35,496 bases of DNA. Source: Planctomycetota bacterium (GTDB lineage: Bacteria > Planctomycetota > Phycisphaerae > Sedimentisphaerales > Anaerohalosphaeraceae). The DNA lies in the NCBI GenBank assembly GCA_016873215.1, contig VGXU01000025.1, positions 1-35,496 of the forward strand, read 5' to 3'. This document shows, one piece after another, positions 2,384 to 34,595 of this stretch. Under the pieces are notes generated by a model that did not search any database, was not told where the DNA came from, and worked only from the letters and a program-made list of their open reading frames with translations. Made by a program: the position numbers and the translations under genes. How positions within the stretch are numbered: the first letter of the stretch is position 1; every line of letters starts with the position of its first letter.

Positions 2384-3820
2384 TTATAAAATGTCTTTGA
2401 GATTAAATTTTGCCAGCTCCGCGCGAACCTGTTCCATTACCTGCCGCAATTTCGGGTTTTGGGTCTGAAAAGACGACTTTTCCACGGCGATACTGATATC
2501 GGCCAGTGTAATATTGGCACCATCAGTTGAAGGTACAAAACCCACAATCGGTTCGGTTGTTTTGCACAATAGATCCGCCCGGGTCAGATTTTCGAGAATA
2601 TGTTCGATAAAATCGGCAGGCAGCGCCGTGGCGTCGGCGATTTCAGAAGGCATAATGGGCTTGCGGCCTTTGTCGTTGAAAGCCTGAAGAACTTCCCGCA
2701 TAATCTGGATAGTTGTCTGTTCAGTCGCGATGAAATTAGTCTGTTTGGCCCGCAGCCGAGCCATTTTTTCGGCTTTTTCGAGCGAATGCACATGCTGCGT
2801 CGCATAGGTCAACTGCAAGCCCATCAGCACAACCCACCAGATAATATAAATCCACAACACCGCCAGCGGGATTAAACCCATAATCCCATAAACCGACTGG
2901 TAAGATGCCTTGGTGACATAAATCCCAAAACCATACTTGGCCGCGGTCCAGAAAATGGCTGCAAACACGGCCCCCAGCAAAGCAGACCGGGGTTTTACTT
3001 TGGCGTTGGGAATGAACATGTACAGAAAAAACATCAATATCATACTCAGCGCAAAGCTGAAAACAGGCTTGATGTACTTAAAAACGCTTTGTAGCAGCGT
3101 CTGTGAAAACGCATATTGTGAACCGTTGGGATCGGAGCTGCTGATGGGACTCCTTACATCAGATTCCTGATGGCTTGGTGGAAACGCATATTGTAAACCG
3201 TTGGGACCGGAGCTACTGATAGGACTCCTTACATCAGATTCCTGATGCGTATGTGGAAACGCATATTGCATGCTTTTTGCGCTCAAATATACGCCCACTC
3301 CTATCAGTAATGGACCCAGTGTCAGCAGTGCCCAGTAGTTGATGGTGCGATGCAGAATGTCGCGAGACTTTGGAACGCCCCAGATGGAGTTAAACGCCTT
3401 TTCAATCGTCGTCAGCAGACTGATCGCTGCCCAGATGGTGAGCAGGCCGCCGATAAATGTTATAGCGCCCGTATTTAGATTGGAAATATAGCTGCCTGTA
3501 ATTTCATCTATTTTTGCCGCCAGTGAAATCTCTTTGCCGCCGGGGGTATCCGAAGGATAACTAATTTTGGTCAGATTGGACTGTTCATAAATAAGCTGCC
3601 TGACTTTATCACCCATATTCTTCGAGGCCGGAAACATCTGAAACACCATCAATATTACAATCGCCAGAGGTACGATACCAAACATCGTGTGATACGCCAG
3701 CGCGGCGGCCTGTGTGCCGCAGCGATTTAGAACCAGCAGGCGGCCGCACTGCCGCAAAACTCGAAAAACCAAAACCGCCTTGTTTGTTTCCGCGTCGTCC
3801 GAGCGAAATTTATCGAACAT
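2384..3820 (-). CDS. YihY/BrkB-family inner-membrane protein with internal tandem repeat
   Basis: This is a 478-residue protein. Hydrophobic segments near residues 40-65, 120-140, 165-185, 250-270, 280-305 and 310-335 follow the YihY/UPF0761 (formerly RNase BN) layout, including an early AALAYHTMFGIVPL motif. A C-terminal soluble tail (about 365-478) resembles a winged-helix segment. Between the third and fourth segments lies a roughly 60-residue insertion built from a 25-residue unit (ESDVRSPISSS...PNG..YAF) repeated twice plus a partial third copy; it is absent from ordinary family members. An AAGGAG site six bases before the ATG supports the start. The gene follows the AsmA-like gene by 32 bases and is probably cotranscribed with it. 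Molecular function is unknown, and the old tRNA-nuclease assignment has been withdrawn. Confidence 0.85.
   Translation of the reverse strand: MFDKFRSDDAETNKAVLVFRVLRQCGRLLVLNRCGTQAAALAYHTMFGIVPLAIVILMVFQMFPASKNMGDKVRQLIYEQSNLTKISYPSDTPGGKEISLAAKIDEITGSYISNLNTGAITFIGGLLTIWAAISLLTTIEKAFNSIWGVPKSRDILHRTINYWALLTLGPLLIGVGVYLSAKSMQYAFPHTHQESDVRSPISSSGPNGLQYAFPPSHQESDVRSPISSSDPNGSQYAFSQTLLQSVFKYIKPVFSFALSMILMFFLYMFIPNAKVKPRSALLGAVFAAIFWTAAKYGFGIYVTKASYQSVYGIMGLIPLAVLWIYIIWWVVLMGLQLTYATQHVHSLEKAEKMARLRAKQTNFIATEQTTIQIMREVLQAFNDKGRKPIMPSEIADATALPADFIEHILENLTRADLLCKTTEPIVGFVPSTDGANITLADISIAVEKSSFQTQNPKLRQVMEQVRAELAKFNLKDIL
3111..3270 (-). repeat. 75-bp in-frame tandem repeat inside YihY-family gene
   Basis: The unit beginning GCATATTG (plus strand) starts at 3111, 3186 and 3261, giving two full 75-bp units and a partial third. 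The period is 25 codons, so the frame is kept. Each unit holds a short palindrome (CATCAG, four bases, CTGATG). The two units differ at only a few positions, so the duplication is recent. Confidence 0.9.
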
Positions 3821-11676: not shown

Positions 11677-12576
11677 TTATTGACCGTCAAGCCAGCCGCC
11701 GGTTTTTAGCCAGTCGGCATAGAGATTAATCCATCCCTCGGCCGGGCCGACGCCTTTTTTCATTCCGAAGCCGTGGCCGCCTTTGAGATAAATGTGCATT
11801 TCCGCGGGGACGCGGGCCTTGCGAAGGGCTTCATAAAACATAATGCTGTTTTCCGCCGGCACCCCTTTGTCATCATTGGCGTGAATCAAAAATGTCGGCG
11901 GGGTATCTTTTGTCACCCGAAGGTGGTTGGAAAATTGCCTGATTTGTTCAGCGGAGGCGTTTTTGCCAAGCAAGTTGTTGCGCGAGCCTGTATGCGCAAA
12001 CGGCGTTTCCAGTGTAATCACCGGGTAAATAAGCGCCATAAAATCCGGCCGGCAGCGGATTTTGTCAATTTCATCCTGCGGCTCATATGCCGGGGTTTGA
12101 AAATGCGTCCCGGCCGTCGAGGCCAGATGTCCGCCGGCGGAAAAACCGATAATGCCGATGCGATTGGGGTCGATGGCCCACTCTTTGGCGCGATAGCGAA
12201 CCAGCCGGATGGCCCGCTGGGCGTCGGATAGCGGGGCCGGGTGCTGGTAGCCTTTGCCGTTGTGGCGGTAATCCAGAATAAAGGCCGAAACACCGAGGCC
12301 ATTGAGCCACTGGGCGGTCGGCGTCCCTTCCTTTTCTATTGCCACCCCTGAATACCCGCCGCCGGGACAAATGATGACGGCGCAACCGGTATTTCTGCCT
12401 TTGGCCGGAAAACTCATCAGCGAAGGTCTGTCTTTTTCATCTGTACCTTTGGCCCATGGCGCCTGCTCGGACCACAGATATATCTTGTCTCGTGTAAGAG
12501 ACCGCTGTTTGGCGGCACAGGAACACAACAAACCGAGCAGCGACATAAAAATAACTCCTCTGGCAATAATCTTCAT
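11677..12576 (-). CDS. Lipoprotein alpha/beta-hydrolase esterase (BD-FAE/acetyl-xylan-esterase-like)
   Basis: This 299-residue protein has a signal peptide ending in a lipobox (LLGLLCSC, lipid on Cys20). The hydrolase core has an oxyanion segment (ICPGGGYSG), the nucleophile elbow GFSAGG (Ser near 147), an acidic site in HANDDKGVPAE and a C-terminal His in KGGHGFGM. This layout matches the Aes/BD-FAE carbohydrate-esterase group that removes acetyl or feruloyl groups from hemicellulose. AGGAA about 11 bases before the ATG is the likely ribosome site. A chimeric partial copy lies at 14920-15636 and an internal fragment of a diverged paralogue at 12842-13020. The exact substrate is inferred from neighbours and not shown. 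Confidence 0.85.
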   Translation of the reverse strand: MKIIARGVIFMSLLGLLCSCAAKQRSLTRDKIYLWSEQAPWAKGTDEKDRPSLMSFPAKGRNTGCAVIICPGGGYSGVAIEKEGTPTAQWLNGLGVSAFILDYRHNGKGYQHPAPLSDAQRAIRLVRYRAKEWAIDPNRIGIIGFSAGGHLASTAGTHFQTPAYEPQDEIDKIRCRPDFMALIYPVITLETPFAHTGSRNNLLGKNASAEQIRQFSNHLRVTKDTPPTFLIHANDDKGVPAENSIMFYEALRKARVPAEMHIYLKGGHGFGMKKGVGPAEGWINLYADWLKTGGWLDGQ

Positions 12577-12708
12577 CGTTTTGGCTTTCCTAAATTGTCC
12601 GTTTTAATCATTTTCTAACCGCAGCCTCATTATCTTCTAATTGCAGCAAACCATAATATCTTTGTGACGTATAGAATACAAGAGTGGATTATATGGCAGG
12701 GAACAGCT

Positions 12709-12990
12709 ATGGAAAACAAAAAAACATTAGATCGCAAGACGCTGGTTTCGGAGCGGGTGGAGAATTTGATGCTGATGGCGGTGCTGGGTCAGGAGCCGTA
12801 TCGCGGGCAGGCCCGGCGGGAACTGCGGCGGCGCTGGCTGGTCGCCAGCTTTGCGAAGGGCCTCATAAAACAGAATGCTGTTTTCCGGCGGCATGGCCTT
12901 GTCATCATTGGCGTGAATCAAAAATGTCGGCGGGGTATCTTTTGTCACCCGCAGGTGGTTGGAAAATTGCCTGATCTGTTCGGGGGATGA
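12709..12990 (+). pseudogene. Small conserved gene, copy 1, 3' end replaced by esterase fragment
   Basis: The first 47 or so codons (MENKKTLDRKTL...) match the intact copy at 15754-15945. An AGGGA site lies 6 bases before the ATG. After about base 12842 the frame runs into antisense sequence of an esterase gene and ends at an unrelated stop, so the 93-residue product is chimeric. In the shared part the two copies differ mainly at third positions, so the gene was under protein-level selection before disruption. Whether the chimera is made is unknown. Confidence 0.65.
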
Positions 12991-13020
12991 ATTTTTGCCC
13001 AGCAAGTTGTTGCGTGAACC
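12842..13020 (-). pseudogene. Internal esterase gene fragment (diverged paralogue)
   Basis: On the minus strand this encodes about 59 residues, GSRNNLLGKNSSPEQ to FYEALRKAG, matching residues of roughly 195-255 in the esterase at 11677-12576. It has conservative changes (for example DDKAMPPE for DDKGVPAE and ILFYE for IMFYE). These show that it comes from a different, once-functional paralogue and not from a fresh copy of its neighbour. Start, nucleophile and C-terminal His are all missing. Confidence 0.8.
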
Positions 13021-13070
13021 TAAATGGTCCGCCTGCGGCGGATCGACTACGAGCACTATAAATCGCTGTT

Positions 13071-14618
13071 TTAAGCCAGTCCAGCCTTGCGTAAAACGTC
13101 GATGGGCCTGCCGGGAAAGCCTTTTTCCCGTGTATCCTGCGGAAAGCTTTTATCCGGATAACAATAATATTTTTCAATCTCTTCGACCGGCAGCCCGGGG
13201 TCGCCAAAGTGTTTCTGCCATTGTTGCGTCAGGGCTTCCATCTTTTCCTGAAGCGCAGCGGCCTTTTTTTTGCCGAACAGATTATTCAGTTGATGCGGGT
13301 CATTTCGACGGTCGTAAAGAGCGGCCAGGGTAGTTTTGAAAAGCTCGCGTTTGCCGTCCGGCAAAACACGAAAATGATTAATATGCCCGCGTCCATAGGT
13401 AAAATCTTTCGTACGAACGCCTGCCCAGTGCGGATAATAGAAAAACATCGGCAGCGAATCCACTGCATCGTCATCCCCTTTTTGAATTGCATCAGACAGG
13501 TCTTTGCCCTGCACTTCTTTTGGAATATCCAGGCCCATCAGGCCCAGAACCGTCGGCATCATATCCATCGAGCCAATCAGCAGATCGGACTTGCGATGGA
13601 TTTTCAATCCCGCCGGCCATCGCATCAAAAACGGAATTCGCGACGAGGTGTCTTCGGGATGGCCTTTGGCAATCGCATATCCGTAAGACGACAGGTTATC
13701 CCCGTGGTCGGAAGTAAAGACCACCAGCGTATTATCATCCATACCCTTTTGGCGCAGTTTATCCATCAGCTCGCCAAACGCCTTATCCACGCCGCTGCAC
13801 ATCGCATAATAGCCATGATAGGCTTTGCGTACCTGGGGACTGTCTTTGACATTCGGACGCAGCTGGATTTTTTCAGGATCATACATCGCCATTAATTCCG
13901 GCATCGAATCATACCGATAGACCGTAGAGTTGGGCTGTTGACCCCAGTCATGCGGCGGATGCCAGGAGACAAATAACGCAAACGGCTCGTCATCTTTGCA
14001 CTGGTCAAGAAATTCCAGAGCCTGACGGGTCTGTCCGTAAACTTCCCATTCGTTGAAAAAAACCTTTTCGCCCTGGTCATTCCAGTAGTAACATTTGCCC
14101 GGACGATAATCCACATGGCAATTATTGCTTAAAAATGTCCCGTCGAATCCATATCGCATCGGGCCCGGCGGAATGGGACGTTTTCGATCCCCGCCATACA
14201 AATGCCATTTACCGATATAACCCATTTTATACCCCGCATCTCGCAGGCATTCACCGAAAGTTTTGCCGTTATTGGCCAGCATGGGCCAGTCGTTGGTCAA
14301 AGCGCCATTATACAGCAGATGCTGACCGCTCATTAGCATCGCACGGAACGGCGTACATACCGGGCTGATGGATACGCAATTCTCAAACTGCAATCCATCC
14401 TGCGCCAGTTGATCCAGATTGGGCGTGATAATCTGCTTATTGCCGTAACAGCCGAGCGCATCCCGTGACTGCTGATCTGAAAACACAAACAGCAGATTGG
14501 GACGTTTTTTCATCGCAGGCATTTGATCCGCAACCTGACAACCGTTCATCAATCCAAATCCCGCCGCGGTGATTGCAGCCGAATGCAAAAAATCTCTTCG
14601 TGTCCAATTTTTAGTCAT
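13071..14618 (-). CDS. Tat-exported arylsulfatase-family (S1) sulfatase
   Basis: This is 515 residues from the ATG at 14618, which has AGGTGG about 5 bases upstream. The product starts with a twin-arginine signal (TRRDFLHSAAITAAGFGL) and a possible lipobox Cys (LMNGC). The sulfatase core begins RPNLLFVFSDQQSRDALGCYG. The formylglycine motif is CTPFR (Cys88), matching C-x-P-x-R. KMGYIGKWHLYG and FTSDHGDNLSSYG supply metal and sulfate ligands. Cys-type sulfatases need an activating enzyme, which is not in the window. Together with the neighbouring esterase it suggests desulfation of an algal or host polysaccharide. An open frame extends 25 codons upstream but lacks a ribosome site and would bury the Tat signal. 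Confidence 0.92.
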   Translation of the reverse strand: MTKNWTRRDFLHSAAITAAGFGLMNGCQVADQMPAMKKRPNLLFVFSDQQSRDALGCYGNKQIITPNLDQLAQDGLQFENCVSISPVCTPFRAMLMSGQHLLYNGALTNDWPMLANNGKTFGECLRDAGYKMGYIGKWHLYGGDRKRPIPPGPMRYGFDGTFLSNNCHVDYRPGKCYYWNDQGEKVFFNEWEVYGQTRQALEFLDQCKDDEPFALFVSWHPPHDWGQQPNSTVYRYDSMPELMAMYDPEKIQLRPNVKDSPQVRKAYHGYYAMCSGVDKAFGELMDKLRQKGMDDNTLVVFTSDHGDNLSSYGYAIAKGHPEDTSSRIPFLMRWPAGLKIHRKSDLLIGSMDMMPTVLGLMGLDIPKEVQGKDLSDAIQKGDDDAVDSLPMFFYYPHWAGVRTKDFTYGRGHINHFRVLPDGKRELFKTTLAALYDRRNDPHQLNNLFGKKKAAALQEKMEALTQQWQKHFGDPGLPVEEIEKYYCYPDKSFPQDTREKGFPGRPIDVLRKAGLA

Positions 14619-14919
14619 GAGCCACCTGCAAAACCTTCCGAAACGCGACAGAACCGCTCTGACGCTAACCTTTCGGCAAACCTCATTATTCATACATTAA
14701 CACAGCGACATTTCCGTAGATTGTCAAGTCTAAAATTCGTTTTTTTGAAAAACTCACAAACTCTTTATTTATCTTGTCAATTTTGTGCCGTCCCGATGAC
14801 GAGCACATGGGGACTATTATAACCTGTTCGTCCCCAGAGTATCTGGCTTTCATAGTTTCTTATACTTGACACCTTATACTTAACCCAAAACCAGCCAAAT
14901 CCGGATCGGGTTTTTGAGT
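14619..14919. other. Intergenic region upstream of sulfatase
   Basis: About 300 bases hold the sulfatase upstream region. From about 14885 they also hold sequence matching the bases just after the CotH/LTD gene stop (16578-16615), so the duplicated block starts before the coding part. I see no gene and no convincing promoter. Confidence 0.5.
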
Positions 14920-15636
14920 TTACGTGCCCGGGGTAGGCGTAATTGCCTGCCAGTTATTCGGGTCGTTGCCATATAATGCCGTATTTTTGCGGCCCAGCGA
15001 TTTTCTGCCGCCGTCGGCGTCTATGGGCCACAAGTCAGGCTCAACGGAGTCCTCGCCGGGGTGCGAACCGTCGCTGTAGCCGACCCGTTCAACACGGATG
15101 TATTGGCGGTCGCCGAATTCATCCGTATCACCCGGTTTGCTCAGTTCAAGCTGTTCGCCGTCATTTGCCAGCCCGCCGCTGTATGGTCCGTAGATGATGC
15201 CGATGCGATTGGGGTCGATGGCCCACTCTTTGGCGCGATAGCGAACCAGCCGGATGGCCCGCTGGGCGTCGGATAGCGGGGCCGGGTGCTGGTAGCCTTT
15301 GCCGTTGTGGCGGTAATCCAGAGTAAAGGCCGAAACACCGAGGCCATTGAGCCACTGGGCGGTCGGCGTCCCTTCCTTTTCTATTGCCACCCCTGAATAC
15401 CCGCCGCCGGGACAAATGATGACGGCGCAACCGGTATTTCTGCCTTTGGCCGGAAAACTCATCAGCGAAGGTCTGTCTTTTTCATCTGTACCTTTGGCCC
15501 ATGGCGCCTGCTCGGGCCACAGATATATCCTGTCTCGTTTGAGAGATTGCTGTCTGGCGACACAGGAACTCAACAAACCGAGCAGCGACACAAAAATAAC
15601 TCCTCTGGCAATAATCTTCGTCGTTTTGGCTTTCAT
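14920..15636 (-). pseudogene. Chimeric gene: esterase N-terminal half fused to CotH/LTD C-terminal tail
   Basis: The 238-residue open frame is in frame throughout. Residues 1 to about 150 match the first half of the esterase at 11677-12576, including signal peptide, lipobox (LLSSC) and GGGYSG. From GII onward the remaining 90 or so residues are the C terminus of the protein at 16616-20830 (YGPYSG...ITPTPGT). The nucleophile serine elbow, acidic residue and catalytic His are all lost, so it cannot be an active esterase. The ATG used by the parent is ACG here; the first ATG arises from the former ribosome-site region, so translation is doubtful. A seven-base match (ATGCCGA) lies at the junction near 15200. 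Confidence 0.8.
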
Positions 15637-15753
15637 AACTCGTCCGTTTTAATCATTTCCTAACCGCCGCCTCATTATTCTTTAATTGCAACAAACCAAA
15701 ATACCCTTGTGACGTATAGAGTATGTGTGTGGATTAAATGGCAAGGAACAGCT

Positions 15754-15945
15754 ATGGAAAACAAAAAAACATTAGACCGTAAGACGCTGGCTTTGGAGAG
15801 AGTGGAGAATCTGATGCTGATGGCAGTATTGGGTCAGGAGCCGTATCGTGGGCAGGCCCGGCGGGAACTGCAGCGACGTCGGCTGGTCGCCAATTTCGAC
15901 CGTCTGGGCGACTGCATCCAGACCAACCTGGGTATGGCATATTGA
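15754..15945 (+). CDS. Small conserved 63-residue protein, intact copy
   Basis: This is MENKKTLDRKTL through to DCIQTNLGMAY, 63 residues, basic and helix-rich (an Arg-rich stretch follows QARREL). It has no signal peptide, membrane segment or known motif that I recognise. AAGGA lies 6 bases before the ATG. Compared with the copy at 12709, the shared 47 codons show about ten synonymous and five amino-acid changes, the pattern of a real protein under selection. The intervening DNA with the divergent esterase is also conserved between copies, so the pair esterase(-)/small gene(+) was duplicated as a unit. Function unknown. Confidence 0.7.
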   Translation: MENKKTLDRKTLALERVENLMLMAVLGQEPYRGQARRELQRRRLVANFDRLGDCIQTNLGMAY

Positions 15946-16498: not shown

Positions 16499-16615
16499 AA
16501 TCACTCCTTTTGTGTTATTTCACCTTCATATCAAGCATAGAACCACCATCTGTTTCTGTCAAACGCAATTTTGGCCGCCCAAAAAACCAACCTAATCAGG
16601 GCTTGGTTTCTGCGT

Positions 16616-19600
16616 TTATGTGCCCGGCGTAGGTGTGATTGCCTGCCAATTATTCGGGTCGTTGCCATATAATGCCGTATTTTTGCGGCCCAGCGATTTT
16701 CCGCCGCCGTCGGCGTCTATGGGCCACAAGTCAGGCTCAACGGGGTCCTCGCCGGGGTGCGAACCGTCGCTGTAGCCGACCCGTTCAACACGGATGTATT
16801 GGCGGGCGCCGAATTCATCCGTATCACCCGGCTTGCTCAGTTCAAGCTGTTCGCCGTCATTTGCCAGCCAGCCGCTGTATGGTCCGTAGATGATGCCGAC
16901 AGGAACACTGGGGTATCGCCAGCGAAATGCCGTCGGATTTTTGACAACCAGAATCTTGCCCCCGGCCGGTATCGCAACCACATTCGGCGGGCCTGCGAAT
17001 GTATAGTCAATGCCATTTGTAAATTTCCACGGCTGCTTTTCCGCAGCATCGTAAAGAGTCACAGGTGAACCACCGGCATTATAAAGTTCAATATATTCGT
17101 ACTCGTTATTGACATACGCTCCGCCCGCTGGCCAATTTGGGTGATACATTATTTCCGTAATGACAATCGGTCCAACCTTTGGATACGCATTTGCCGCTCC
17201 TGAGGTATTGTGGTCCATTGACACGAAATTATACGTATTGGTGCTGGCCTTGTAATGACGTCCCAATGACACACCTCTATCAGACGCTCCGAAATCCTCT
17301 TTTGCCCGATAACCGGTAAGTACATCATTGGAGTCTAATGCCGAAGCCAGGCAGACCATCTCGCCGTTCTCGCTGAGTGCGAAAGGAATAAGCCGGCCGG
17401 GGTCGGTTGCCAATTGGCCGAAATTCGCGGTTTCGGTAACAATCCAATACCCATGTCCTGCGATAACAGTTCCTGCCGCGAAGCGATATTTCAGCGGGTT
17501 TGTCTCGTTGTCGCTCAGATACCAGCCGCTGATATCAATCGTATTAGCCGTCGTATTATAAAGCTCAATCCAGTCGGGCGCGCTGTCATCTGAATGAGCC
17601 AGAACTTCATTAATCACAATCGAACCAGGATTGGGAATAATGCCGGAGTCGTCGGTGTCGGGAGAACCGTTCACGTAAGCGCTTGCCCGCCAAGACTCTT
17701 TTTCGCCCCAGCTGTTCACGTCCGGATTGGTCGGCTCTATAATCGTAAGAGAGTAACCATCACCGTCAACAATAGAACGCCAGCCGTCTTTGTATTCAAA
17801 ATCCAGTATTGGATTGCCCAGGGCGTCGTCTAATCGGATTCTTTCGCCGCCGTTGTCTAAGGAGCCGGTATATTGGCCCGCGATGTATTTACCCGTTCCG
17901 TATTTTGCTTCGAACGCATTTTTGTTCTTTACGACAAGGATATACTGATCCGCCGTAAGTATATTGGAGCCGAATGTGAAATCGATGCCTTTGTTAAACT
18001 TCACGCGGTTCAGGTTGATTGTACCAGTGCCGGTGTTCTTCAACTCGACATACTCAGTGCCGGGGTCATTGGGGTCGTTGGGATCATTTGGATGATACAT
18101 AATCTCTGTGATGCGGAGAGAATCTCTGATGTTGCCCACTTCATAGACCGCCTCGATGACTGTGCTCCACTCACTGGTGCTGCTCTTATAAATCCGGGAT
18201 TTAAGTTTTGTGCTTTGATTTATGTTGAAGCCTCCGGAATAAGCAATAGCAGTGGAGGAAACGGCCCCTGTAAATTGGGTGCGAGGGTCATTGCCGTCGA
18301 TTGTGTAGTAGATAGTTCCTCCGGATGCGCCGGGGTCTGTGATGGTGAACGTGTCGCTTGCAGAGACGTAGCCGCCGAATTTATAAGTGCCGTTTACGTT
18401 GAAAACGGGGGCGTCGATACTGGGGAAAAGTTTCGGATTCTTGCTGCGCAAAACTTTGATAATGGCGGATGAGTTAGCCATATTATGAATTTCCGGGATA
18501 TAGTGATTAACAACACAATCCCGCTCCGGAACCCAGGAATCCTCACGTGTGAAATAATAGTTGGGGCCGTGCGGAGGCGTTGGGTAATACGGATCGTCGA
18601 GGTTGTTCGGATTACTCGGTATCGGGAGGGCATTGCTGTAAGGCGTTTTCATCTTTGTATCGCCCCAGCGGGCAGATTCGGCAACGATGGCCTTGTCGAT
18701 CCTATTGGCTGCTTCGAGGTAGCGGTTCTGCGAGTTGGGGATATTGAGGGCTCCATCGTTAAAACAATGTTTCTGGACACGGTCGGCGAAAAGAAGGCGA
18801 AACTCAGCGCTTTTTCGCAGGTTCTGAAAGATTTTGCCGACACCGCTGGTGTTATCTATTCTGGAGGAGGCAAGGGTTTGATTGTCGAGGACTATTTCCT
18901 GGTCCCAGACGAAAAATCGCAACTTGCCATCGCCGCTGACCGGATTAGCGGCAGCAGAGCCGTTGTGGCTGGGCCAGTCCTCAGCGTCGGCGTAAAAGTG
19001 CAGGAACATATAGTCTGCAAAATTTTCAACGTCGATATAATTTTGGATTTCCAGATAACCGGCCTGGGAGGTTGGGTCAATCTGGCTGGCCACTTTGTTC
19101 CAGATGGGGCCCATACTGCCGGAGGAACCAAAATCCTTGTCAATTTCCCAATCCTCAGGCTGGCCTCCGAAATGCTCTGAAAGAAAATCATTGTCACCAA
19201 CCATCTCCGTGAGATTGTAGAGGCCAAAGTAAAGCCCGTTGACATAAAGTTGCACGAAATTACCATAGCTTGAGGGTTGCCCCATATCGTGGAAACTTTC
19301 CTTCATCCAGAAATCGCGGAGATACTGTGAATCATTGGGACGATAGCGGCTCGCCATCCAGGAAACAAGCCCCCATGAATCGGTGAAACTAGCGCGAAGG
19401 AGCAGTTTGTTGAAGTTCTCTACGGAAGATTCCGGGAAGAGCGGATAATTCAACTTGGCCGGACCGTATTGACTGGTGAACGTAAGCCTCAGGCTGTGTT
19501 TCTGCATACGCCAGGGTCGTCGGCTGGAACCGCCATGATTTTCGATTTTGCAGTCGTACTGAAAACCATGGGTACCGTTAATCGGAATGTATTCTATTGA

Positions 19601-25334: not shown

Positions 25335-27146
25335 TCAGCCGTTCTGGTATTTGCTGGTCACATACACGGCCTGGGAGGCCAGCAGATTGGGCCATAACTT
25401 GACCGCGATAGTGCTGAATCGGCTCAGCGGAATTTTCTTTTCAATATAAATATTCAACTCGGCGCAGAAGCAGTCGAAATCCTTAATCGAGAAGAAATGG
25501 ATGTTCGGCGAATTATACCAGCGAAACGGCAACTGTTTGGTCTGCGGCGCCCGGCCGGTCAATGCCAACTGCAGCCGGCAGCCCCAGTGTGCAAAATTGG
25601 GAAAGCTGACAATGACTTTTTTGCCGATACGCAGCAATTCCCGGATGACTTTTTCCGGGTCGCGCAGCGTCTGCAGCGTCTGCGACAGAATCACGTAATC
25701 AAAAGTGTCCGTCGCAAATTGCGATAACCCCCGTTCAATGTCCCGATGCAAAACCGACAAACACCGCCCGACGCAATGCACCACGAGGTCTTCGTCCAGT
25801 TCGATGCCCAGTCCGTCAACATTTTTATCCGCAATCAGACGTGACAGCAGTTCGCCGTCGCCGCAGCCCATATCCAGTACCCGGCTGTTCGGCGTAATGA
25901 CCGCATCAATTAATTCATAATCCACACGCGCCCTTTTGGAACATTCAAAGGTTTTCAAATGCTTAGATGGAGTTTTTTCGCAAAGACACTTCTGTCCCGT
26001 GCGGATGCGATATTGCGTGGACTTCAGAAATCCCGCGATGAGTTTGTCCTGCGACGGACATTCCAGCAGAAAGGCGTCATGGCCGTAAGGCGAATGAATA
26101 TTGCAGTACGTCACATCTTTGCCTTCGGCGCTCAAAACATCAACAATTTCTTCGGATTGCGTTGGCGTGAACAGCCAGTCACTCGAAAAACTGATGACCA
26201 GAAACCGGCTGTGAATCCCGGCAAACGCGTTTTGCAGCGTCCCATACGCGCGTGTCAAATCGAAATAGTCCATCGCCTTGGTAATATACAGATAACTGTT
26301 GGCGTCGAACCGCTCGACAAAACTCTGACCCTGATAATCCAGGTACGTCTCGACCGCAAATTCGGAATCAAAATCGTATTTATATTTTTCCGCCTCGTAG
26401 AGTTCCCGTCCGAATTTTTCGCGCATCGACTGCTCGGACAAATAGGTGATATGACCAATCATCCGGGCAATGCCCAAGCCGCGGGCGGGAGCTTTATCAT
26501 CGCGATACTGACCGTCGCTGAAATTCGGGTCGCCGAGGATGGCGTTTCGTCCCACCGCGTCGAATGCGATGGATTGGGTGTTGAGCCGCGTCGTTGCGGC
26601 AATACAGATTGCCGAATCCACCAGTTCCGGATACGCAATCGCCCATTGCAGCACCTGCATCCCGCCCATGGACCCGCCGATGACGCTCAGTAGGCGAGGG
26701 ATGTCGAGTTTGTCCAAAAGCAGTTTCTGGACTTTGACAATGTCTTCAATGGTAATAATTGGAAAGTCCAGGCCGTACCGCTTTCCTGTGGCCGGGTTGA
26801 TATCGGATGGGCCGGTCGTGCCGCTGCATCCGCCGAGGAAGTTGGAACAGATGACAAAGTATTTATTGGTATCGATGGGTTTTCCCGGCCCGACCATAAT
26901 ATCCCACCAGCCGGGCTTGCGGTCGTTGGGACTGTGATAGCCCGCAACATGGGCGTCGCCCGACAGCGCATGGCAAACCAGCACAACATTGTCTTTTTCC
27001 GCCGACAACTGCCCATACGTTTCATACGCCACATCGATCGGGCCCAACGTCTTGCCCGATTGCAAAACAAGCGGGCTGTCCTGCTCAATTACACGAACCT
27101 TGCGACTTTCGACGATGCCAACAGAATTTTTCAGGTCTTTTTCCAT
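25335..27146 (-). CDS. metXW: Bifunctional MetX-MetW: homoserine O-acyltransferase fused to methyltransferase-like domain
   Basis: This is 603 residues from the ATG at 27146; another ATG at 27221 is possible and neither has a clear ribosome site. Residues 1-375 are MetX: YETYG, HALSGDAHVAG, the nucleophile elbow GGSMGGMQ (Ser159), Asp in SSDWLF (323) and His in GHDAFLLE (356). Residues of roughly 405-603 are MetW: SAM-type motif LDMGCGDGELLSRL, then FDYVILSQTLQTL and SFPNFAHWGCR. MetX acylates homoserine in methionine synthesis, using acetyl- or succinyl-CoA, which I cannot decide. MetW is usually a separate adjacent gene that supports MetX activity, so the fusion fits that partnership. The gene is upstream of and codirectional with the rRNA operon. 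Confidence 0.93.
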   Translation of the reverse strand: MEKDLKNSVGIVESRKVRVIEQDSPLVLQSGKTLGPIDVAYETYGQLSAEKDNVVLVCHALSGDAHVAGYHSPNDRKPGWWDIMVGPGKPIDTNKYFVICSNFLGGCSGTTGPSDINPATGKRYGLDFPIITIEDIVKVQKLLLDKLDIPRLLSVIGGSMGGMQVLQWAIAYPELVDSAICIAATTRLNTQSIAFDAVGRNAILGDPNFSDGQYRDDKAPARGLGIARMIGHITYLSEQSMREKFGRELYEAEKYKYDFDSEFAVETYLDYQGQSFVERFDANSYLYITKAMDYFDLTRAYGTLQNAFAGIHSRFLVISFSSDWLFTPTQSEEIVDVLSAEGKDVTYCNIHSPYGHDAFLLECPSQDKLIAGFLKSTQYRIRTGQKCLCEKTPSKHLKTFECSKRARVDYELIDAVITPNSRVLDMGCGDGELLSRLIADKNVDGLGIELDEDLVVHCVGRCLSVLHRDIERGLSQFATDTFDYVILSQTLQTLRDPEKVIRELLRIGKKVIVSFPNFAHWGCRLQLALTGRAPQTKQLPFRWYNSPNIHFFSIKDFDCFCAELNIYIEKKIPLSRFSTIAVKLWPNLLASQAVYVTSKYQNG

Positions 27147-27399
27147 TTGAGAAATTGTAAATCGCTTTCGGTCGCTTGTAAAGAGAGTAGCTTTGTTAAT
27201 AGAGATTGGGAATAGTTGCATTAAACGCGATTAAACACAACAATTCATACCCACTTTCAGAGCTGTAAAGTTGAAAATTCGAACGTTATCTCTGAATTTT
27301 CAATATGCCTCTCATACCGCCAAAACAACGCCAATACAAGATATGTGTAGTCTTTTTAGTTAAATATTTTGTTTTTCGACAAAATTTCCCTTGCTACTC

Positions 27400-28423: not shown

Positions 28424-29087
28424 GTTATCCATAATTGGGTTCGTTTCGTTTTTTTGCCTCCATTTCTCACATTCATTTCTGGGTTTTTGATATTGATAAC
28501 GCATATTCGGTCGTGAAAAAATTGGGTTCGTTTTGTAACAGGTATAAAGGGATACAAGTATGCAAGAATTAGAATGGTCCTTCGGCGCTGCTCAGTGCAG
28601 GCTCTGCGGCCGGGGTAAAATTCAAAACTATATTTCAAAGAATCACAGGGGCGGAAAAAAGGCCCTCTGTAATTACCGGGGACTTGCACGCCGGTGTCGA
28701 AAAGTTGTGATTTTTCGGGCGCGGGAAAGCTGTAAGTCTTTATGTGGAATGGGGTTAAAAATCTATGGAATTTTATAAGACAGCAGGATAGTGCAATCGC
28801 AACTGTGACTAAGTATGCAGGTATGGAGGAATGCAGGTATGCAGAGATGGAACAAAGACAAAGGGCAAAAGTTAAAAATCAAAAGGCAAAATTAAGGACA
28901 GCCTATGAGGCTGGACTAATTAAAAAAAGGGGGGGGGGGGTACCACGAAAAACACAAAATATATTTAGACCGGATTAACAAGATAAGAAATTATTTTACC
29001 ACGAAGAATCGAAGGATACGAAAAGAAAGCGGGATAAGACTAATGGGTCTAATGGGTCTTATAGGAGGAAGGTTGAGAATTGAGAAA
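28424..29087 (+). repeat. Composite dispersed repeat, right copy
   Basis: This is the same module order as the left copy, but inverted relative to it in the window: the AAAGTTATCCA start, the core (28633-28802), and the TAATGGGTCT-type module (29029-29087). Between core and last module it carries about 225 extra bases, including a G12 run and an AAAGTTAAAAATCAAAA-type segment. The open frame at 28560-28778 covers the core but has no ribosome site. Confidence 0.75.
28862..28920 (+). repeat. AT-rich AAAGTTAAAAATCAAAA repeat segment, second copy
   Basis: This matches 27958-28016 in module order: the AAAGTTAAAAATCAAAA tract, CAAAATT, GGACAGCC, a short loop and GGCTGGACTA. It lies inside the extra DNA of the right composite repeat. 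Confidence 0.6.
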
Positions 29088-33589: not shown

Positions 33590-34595
33590 ATGACACAAAT
33601 GACACATAGAGAAAGGATAAAAGCTATATTTTCCGGTGAGCCGGCAGATCGCTGCGGCCTATGGCTTGGGAATCCTCATGAGCAGACCATCAGAATCTAT
33701 TGCGACTATTTTAAGGTAAATTCTGAAGAGCAGGTCAGAGAAACACTGGGCGATGACATCCGCTGGATCAGGCCCGACAGGATCGGCCGTTATTATCATG
33801 ACCCTGCGGGCAAAACCCGTTTTGACAGGGGCTTTACGAAGCATACTTTTGGGCAGCCCGGACCTCTTGCCGACTGTGAAACCGTCGACCAGGTGGATGA
33901 ATTCCCCTGGCCTGATCCTGATAACCTCAGGTTCGATGATTGCATAAAAGTCCTTGAGAATACGGGCAATTACTACCGCATGGGCGGTTTCTGGACAGAC
34001 AGACCTTTTTGGCATGGAAAACTATTTAATCAAAATGTTTACCAATCCGGATGTGGTTCATGCCGTTACGGACAGAGTTTGTCAATTCTACTTACAAGCC
34101 AATGAAAAGTTTTTTGACCTGGCCGGTGATCAAATGGACGGGTTCTTTTTTGGAAATGATTTTGGAACTCAGCTTGATCTGCTTATGGGGCCGGACCAGT
34201 TTGATCAGTTCATTTTGCCCTGGTTTAAGAAATTTATTGAACAGGGACACCGTCATCATTACCATGTTATTTTGCACTCCTGCGGTTCGATCTATAAAGT
34301 CATTGACAAGCTCATCGCCGCAGGCGTGGATTGCATCCATCCCCTCCAGGCCAAAGCCGCAAATATGGATGCCAAGACTCTTGTACAACATTTCAAGGGG
34401 TCGGTTGTGTTCATGGGTGCGGTGGACACACAGGACCTGCTGGTCCACTCGTCACCCGAACAGATCAAAGCTGAGGTAAAGCGGTTGATGGAAATACTTG
34501 GTCCTCAATTTATAGTCAGTCCCAGTCACGAAAAAATATTGCCTAATATACCGCCTGAGAATATCAAAGCAATGGCCGATGCGGTAAAGCGATAG
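33590..34595 (+). pseudogene. UroD/MtaA-family protein, frameshifted
   Basis: Two overlapping frames together cover one uroporphyrinogen-decarboxylase-like protein of about 335 residues. The first frame (33590 to about 34005) has MTHRERIKAIFSGEPADR and runs to NYYRMGGFWT. The second (from about 34008 to 34595) continues DLFGMENYLIKMFTNPDVV, then FFFGNDFGTQLDLLMGP, HSCGSIYKVIDKLIAAGVD and FMGAVDTQDLL. The break is at a GACA tandem repeat (about 34003-34014). The HSCG motif is the metal-binding type of corrinoid methyltransferases (MtaA/CmuA), not true heme enzymes. It could be a real pseudogene or an assembly error in the repeat. It follows the ROK kinase by about 160 bases. Confidence 0.82.

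Follow-up and report, generated by a model that had tools for sequence, protein, structure and literature searches.

Among described systems, possible functional parallels to the protein considered here include very small proteins that act on kinases. Sda of Bacillus subtilis, a helical hairpin of 46 amino acids, inhibits the kinase KinA (PMC7430163). Small DUF1127 proteins of the YjiS type, in turn, bind the sensor kinase PhoR (PMC12501420). The locus discussed below contains a small gene (15754-15945) in the window, which is the whole stretch of 35,496 nucleotides that was analysed and represents an entire contig of a 2.69-Mb draft planctomycete genome.

The protein encoded by this gene may work in a manner comparable to both. 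With Sda it would share a small helical hairpin, a hydrophobic binding face and a tie to two-component signalling; it differs in that no sequence match to Sda was found, the Pfam Sda model matched neither the window protein nor ten of its relatives, and the candidate partner is at best a degenerate receiver. The likeness to YjiS-type proteins would lie in very small size, two predicted helices and the ability to exert an effect by contacting a sensor kinase, whereas the Pfam DUF1127 model likewise matched none of these 11 proteins, net charge varies among the members described here, and the latter were found in Phycisphaerae only. By the tests made here, the protein is not a member of the Sda or DUF1127 families, and it perhaps works similarly to them.

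Conservation and selection of the small gene

The product of the small gene is a 63-residue protein, MENKKTLDRKTLALERVENLMLMAVLGQEPYRGQARRELQRRRLVANFDRLGDCIQTNLGMAY. By length alone its frame is unremarkable, as 88 ORFs of at least 40 amino acids overlap the surrounding 10 kb; the weight of the case for a real gene rests on conservation, not on ORF length. The first-pass annotation had described the gene as duplicated, with a related copy at 12709, and this was confirmed, 47 codons being common to the two copies without any indel. Its counts made by eye, about ten synonymous differences and five amino-acid changes, agree well with the 12 synonymous and 5 nonsynonymous differences computed over the 47 codons (Nei-Gojobori). 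Over 46 codons, 11 synonymous and 4 nonsynonymous differences give a dN of 0.040, a dS of 0.407 and a dN/dS of 0.10 (P = 1.3e-4 versus neutrality, by site counts), while the other five frames range from 0.27 to 1.58. No convincing third copy was found elsewhere in the genome, which holds one whole small gene and one truncated remnant.

Relatives of the protein are present within the taxonomic family of the window (Phycisphaerae, Sedimentisphaerales). Searching 98 related genomes with the single sequence, and so without profile bias, recovered two genomes of the same genus (G001 and G002, at about 2e-11 and 2e-12) and weaker matches in the family. In a profile search, 11 of the family's 39 genomes, distributed over genera g1, g2, g7, g13 and g14, were found to encode the protein at 60-66 amino acids; two of these, G003 (1e-18) and G008 (9e-7), were detected although absent from the profile used. 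Across 161 genomes of the order, the same type of search gave no convincing match beyond the 11.

The alignment of these 11 proteins reveals ten invariant residues (M1, E15, L20, L22, A35, E38, L39, R42, T57 and N58) and a core, E-x2-E-x-L[ML]L ... EL-x2-R, kept in each member. A C-terminal TN[LF] motif, limited to this taxonomic family and present in the window protein, has T57 and N58 in all members and L59 in 10 of 11. Every member starts with ATG, and the positions of their ends differ by only a few residues. The ribosome site, reported as conserved between the two copies, proved to be so more widely, with a GGA/AGG-type purine-rich motif before the ATG in 11/11 members. Pairwise dN/dS values are 0.07 (G018/G025), 0.10 (G018/G027) and 0.07 (G001/G002), with far higher values in shifted frames. 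The earlier proposal that the small gene is real and selected at the protein level therefore stood up to the two checks suggested for it, dN/dS over wider homologues and conservation of the frame in relatives. As frame, start, Shine-Dalgarno site and end are kept among relatives, with dN/dS at about 0.1 or less, the frame is almost certainly a real gene.

Beyond the order, the first match was a 63-aa ORF in G213 (E 8.6e-5 with the 11-member profile; one of 392 genomes). Adding it to the profile led to G818 (1.1e-8), and adding both led to small ORFs of about 60 amino acids in G191, G356, G388, G275, G210 and G453. These wider members have the hairpin core in common with the window family and lack the C-terminal TNL, most of them ending in -AA. 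In the G356/G388 pair, dN/dS is 0.14 with far higher values in shifted frames, indicating that these two are genes as well. Homology between the proteins of other Phycisphaerae families and the window protein is likely, although it rests on a short core of about 25 residues, and after G213 the others were found only once G213 and G818 had joined the profile. Matches in G392, G233, G312 and G265 were rejected because their frames lie inside other genes or lack a proper start, and that in G392 was clearly false at similar scores; the match in G211 is doubtful.

Taken together, the alignments of family and wider members define proteins of about 58-69 amino acids with the core E-x-L[ML]L-x-A-x2-G-x4-R-x6-EL-x2-R, which the window protein carries. 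No relative was found outside Phycisphaerae in a phylum sample of 334 genomes, and the family appears restricted to this class, as far as sampled. The -AA ends (L038, L072, L073, L074, L075, L076 and L077), absent from window-family members, recall C-terminal degradation signals. The small gene of G275 (L074) is followed by a second small ORF, MKRMINWMKQLPEDRLYELAALLDGELERRH...QRLAA, located 164-481 bases after the point where the small gene begins; it has an -AA end as well.

Two broken units of a jointly duplicated pair

The small gene is accompanied by a divergent lipoprotein esterase gene, and the first-pass annotation had held that the two were duplicated together. This is borne out by equal synonymous divergence, dS being 0.41 in both the small gene and the C-terminal fragment of the esterase, with dN/dS values (0.10 and 0.14, respectively) that reflect purifying selection. 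Self-comparison of the window revealed three direct repeats: 12148-12847 with 15193-15892 (700 bp, ungapped, 93.3%), 11808-11989 with 12840-13021 (88.5% identity) and 14887-15203 with 16583-16899 (94% identity). The three agree with a putative head-to-tail duplication of a unit in which esterase and small gene point away from each other. The features of both units are listed in Table 1.

Table 1. Features of the two esterase/small-gene units in the window
Feature	Position	Strand	Remarks
Intact esterase, unit 1	11677..12576	-	299 aa; BD-FAE / alpha-beta hydrolase; lipobox-like signal peptide; PF20434 E 1e-24
Divergent intergenic region, unit 1	12577..12708	.	132 bp between esterase and small-gene starts; counterpart in G001 171 bp
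Truncated second small-gene copy	12709..12849	+	first 47 codons; frame then enters esterase fragment
Second-esterase C-terminal fragment	12840..13021	-	frame kept; versus unit 1 dN/dS 0.14, dS 0.41
Sulfatase-like gene within split second esterase	13071..14693	-	from ORF list; assigned by eye from sequence features
Copy of 3' end of large protein gene (16583-16899)	14887..15203	-	94% identical; overlaps esterase match by 11 bp (15193-15203)
Second-esterase N-terminal half, fused in frame to last 93 residues of lamin-tail-domain protein	14920..15636	-	without GFSAG nucleophile motif
Shine-Dalgarno-like AAGGA of intact small gene	15743..15747	+	six bases 5' of ATG
Intact small gene	15754..15945	+	63 aa, 63 codons; ATG start; Shine-Dalgarno site; orthologues in 10 further family genomes; dN/dS 0.10

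The earlier picture of the pair needs amending, as neither unit contains both genes whole: unit 1 consists of a whole esterase and a cut small gene, and unit 2 of a whole small gene and a broken, fused esterase. The small gene of unit 1, which lacks the conserved TNL, breaks off at codon 47 against the C-terminal piece of the second esterase, and eight base pairs (12840-12847) are common to both matches. The N-terminal piece of the second esterase (15193-15636) contributes to a predicted chimeric product of 238 residues that is devoid of the catalytic region. The large protein supplying the tail of this product is a 1404-aa lamin-tail-domain protein, of which the last 93 codons are duplicated, with a dN/dS of 0.19 between the copies. 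Between the two pieces of the second esterase lie the sulfatase-like gene and the duplicated 3' end of the large protein gene.

The low dN/dS values of the small gene and the esterase fragment at this dS imply that both copies stayed in use under selection through the greater part of their divergence, whether within a single genome or in two strains. A tandem duplication truncating both genes at birth would be a simple account of the junction at 12840-12847; these values in the shared parts speak against it. Either the unit breaks would have come late, or the second unit would have come from a diverged relative. The esterase stretch 12148-12470 has 2 differences between copies, and this near-identity points to later conversion.

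Several further features of the contig were recorded. A 25-residue repeat (QYAFP..HQESDVRSPISSS.PNG) occurs at 3103-3268 as two in-frame tandem units of 75 bp, inside an ORF for a YihY/RBN-like membrane protein (2384-3820, minus strand; named by eye). Inverted stretches at 129-442 and 28633-29086, near the two contig ends, are 82-87% identical, and the former includes a near-palindrome (243-278). By eye, a 628-aa ORF at 25335-27221 resembles a fusion of homoserine O-acetyltransferase (MetX) with a MetW-type methyltransferase. A uroporphyrinogen-decarboxylase-like protein at 33590-34595, also named by eye, is seemingly split into overlapping frames (33590-34105 and 33954-34595), which suggests a frameshift or an assembly error.

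Predicted fold, gene neighbourhoods and possible function

No known family accounts for the small protein. Neither Pfam scans, which covered the window protein plus ten relatives, nor NCBIfam scans returned a family, a PDB sequence search with the profile gave nothing significant, and no description of such a family was found in the literature; the family is previously undescribed. An AlphaFold2 model from 11 sequences contains four helices (mean pLDDT 74.6), among which the central hairpin helices, 17-26 and 31-41, are best supported (block mean pLDDT 86-88). Foldseek searches (PDB, BFVD) and VIA-align gave no convincing fold match to this model. The best comparison was with the NOT-box domain of CNOT3 (PDB 4c0g), which aligned across 51 residues with a Z of 5.2 and an rmsd of 2.6, but its Foldseek E-value was about 5 at 8% identity, and Z values of this order are common among small helical models. 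Inspection of the 11-member alignment revealed neither a catalytic residue pattern nor a signal peptide or transmembrane segment.

In other Phycisphaerae families, the surroundings of the small gene may point to signalling. In G213 and G818 (family f20) and in G453 (f18), a same-strand gene for a receiver-like protein ends 34-60 bp ahead of the small gene. The Response_reg match of the G453 protein (1.5e-5) falls short of the curated cut-off; this protein also matches PDB receivers, including Spo0F, CpxR and PhoP, and is homologous to its G213 counterpart (38%, 1e-20). Aligned to a receiver-like design, it has other residues in place of the phospho-acceptor Asp and of the conserved Lys. When the three receiver-like proteins were combined in one profile, no PDB chain matched at 1e-4, though the G453 protein alone did match. 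G210 and G275 encode, 17-45 bp upstream of the small gene, another pair of proteins homologous to each other; their kinship with receivers is unsupported, including by comparison of the G210 protein with the receiver-like proteins at profile level, and the G210 model, with a pLDDT of 40, was set aside. None of the loci examined within the window's taxonomic family has a receiver gene beside the small gene.

A tentative proposal, which has a real but minority chance of being right, is that the product serves as a small, soluble helical adaptor in signalling. In such a mechanism, a helix-turn-helix hairpin (about residues 17-41) would bind a partner through its conserved hydrophobic face, E-x-L[ML]L-x-A, and hold or block it without catalysis; the hairpin would be followed by a tail that varies but keeps a conserved end. 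A protein-binding adaptor appears the likeliest role as the protein is small and soluble, with a conserved hydrophobic face and no catalytic pattern, and has receiver-like neighbours elsewhere. The likeliest partner class would be a signalling protein, given the degenerate receiver gene directly upstream in three genomes of two other families. In the window genus, the small gene is transcribed away from the esterase gene and need not relate to it. A more speculative extension, with lower odds, is that across the class this would be a regulatory protein which makes up a two-protein module together with a degenerate receiver unable to be phosphorylated; in Sedimentisphaerales it would have become uncoupled from the receiver gene and work with that partner in trans or with another one.

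Two other roles are unlikely, and equally so. One is that of a small, Arg-rich regulator that would bind RNA or DNA and be comparable in its action to the DUF1127 protein CcaF1. The window protein is indeed rich in Arg, with a net charge of +4, and several members across the class have basic tails (net +7, +8); however, charge varies among members from -7 to +8, and conserved positions are occupied mainly by hydrophobic or acidic residues, in addition to the missing DUF1127 match. The other is that of an accessory gene borne by phages or mobile elements (a moron), settled at fixed chromosomal sites in some genera. In G034, the small gene lies between a phage integrase gene and genes for an SU10-type adaptor and a spanin-like protein, and presence is patchy in g13 and g14, with one positive genome each beside several negative ones. 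The 72-position phage family phrog_30626, whose function is unknown, also resembles 4/11 family members (E about 1e-3; 9.6e-4 for window residues 18-43). However, this match covers a 26-residue stretch (profile positions 7-32) instead of the full length, and the phrog_30626 search also finds matches in 4/14 well-known control genomes (E up to 10), so that the likeness may reflect a common amphipathic pattern. Furthermore, phage genes adjoin in one case only, no relative was found in viral contigs or phage records, and synteny is kept in two genera: in 3/3 genomes of the window genus g1, and in g2, where the small gene lies between an opposite-strand thioredoxin-like (AhpC/TSA-type) gene and etfBA, with etfB adjoining in 5/6 genomes and mcsB nearby in the loci read.

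It is improbable that the small protein is a functional partner or regulator of the esterase in a co-regulated divergent pair. The head-to-head order claimed earlier for both copies does stand as far as joint duplication is concerned. It is found in all three genomes of g1, with a spacing of 132-171 bp where measured; the G001 esterase is 64% identical to that of unit 1, and the G002 contig ends inside the esterase. As a functional unit, the pair did not stand: in unit 2 the small gene stayed whole while the esterase broke and became fused to another protein's tail. By tblastn, the esterase adjoins the small gene only in two loci of the same genus, and in other genera the small gene has no esterase beside it, adjoining a beta-propeller protein gene in G022 and lying between large surface-type proteins in G008. 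The esterase link is therefore local to the genus. Finally, a chance open frame or an untranslated relic of a larger gene can be dismissed with near certainty, for although the ORF is short and a scan for sigma-70-type promoters found none (the unit 2 equivalent of the esterase/small-gene intergenic region included), the frame, start, Shine-Dalgarno site and end are kept over deep divergence, with dN/dS at about 0.1. A terminator scan found none either, and an Rfam scan of 11-17 kb gave no RNA family.

Implications for small genes in Planctomycetota

Small genes are easily omitted from annotation, and Planctomycetota are poorly covered. The locus illustrates that the apparent duplicate of a small gene can be a remnant, each unit having kept one intact gene. 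A strongly conserved family with no Pfam, NCBIfam or PDB match represents a usable target for work on function, and the receiver-like neighbour in other families provides a first concrete candidate partner.
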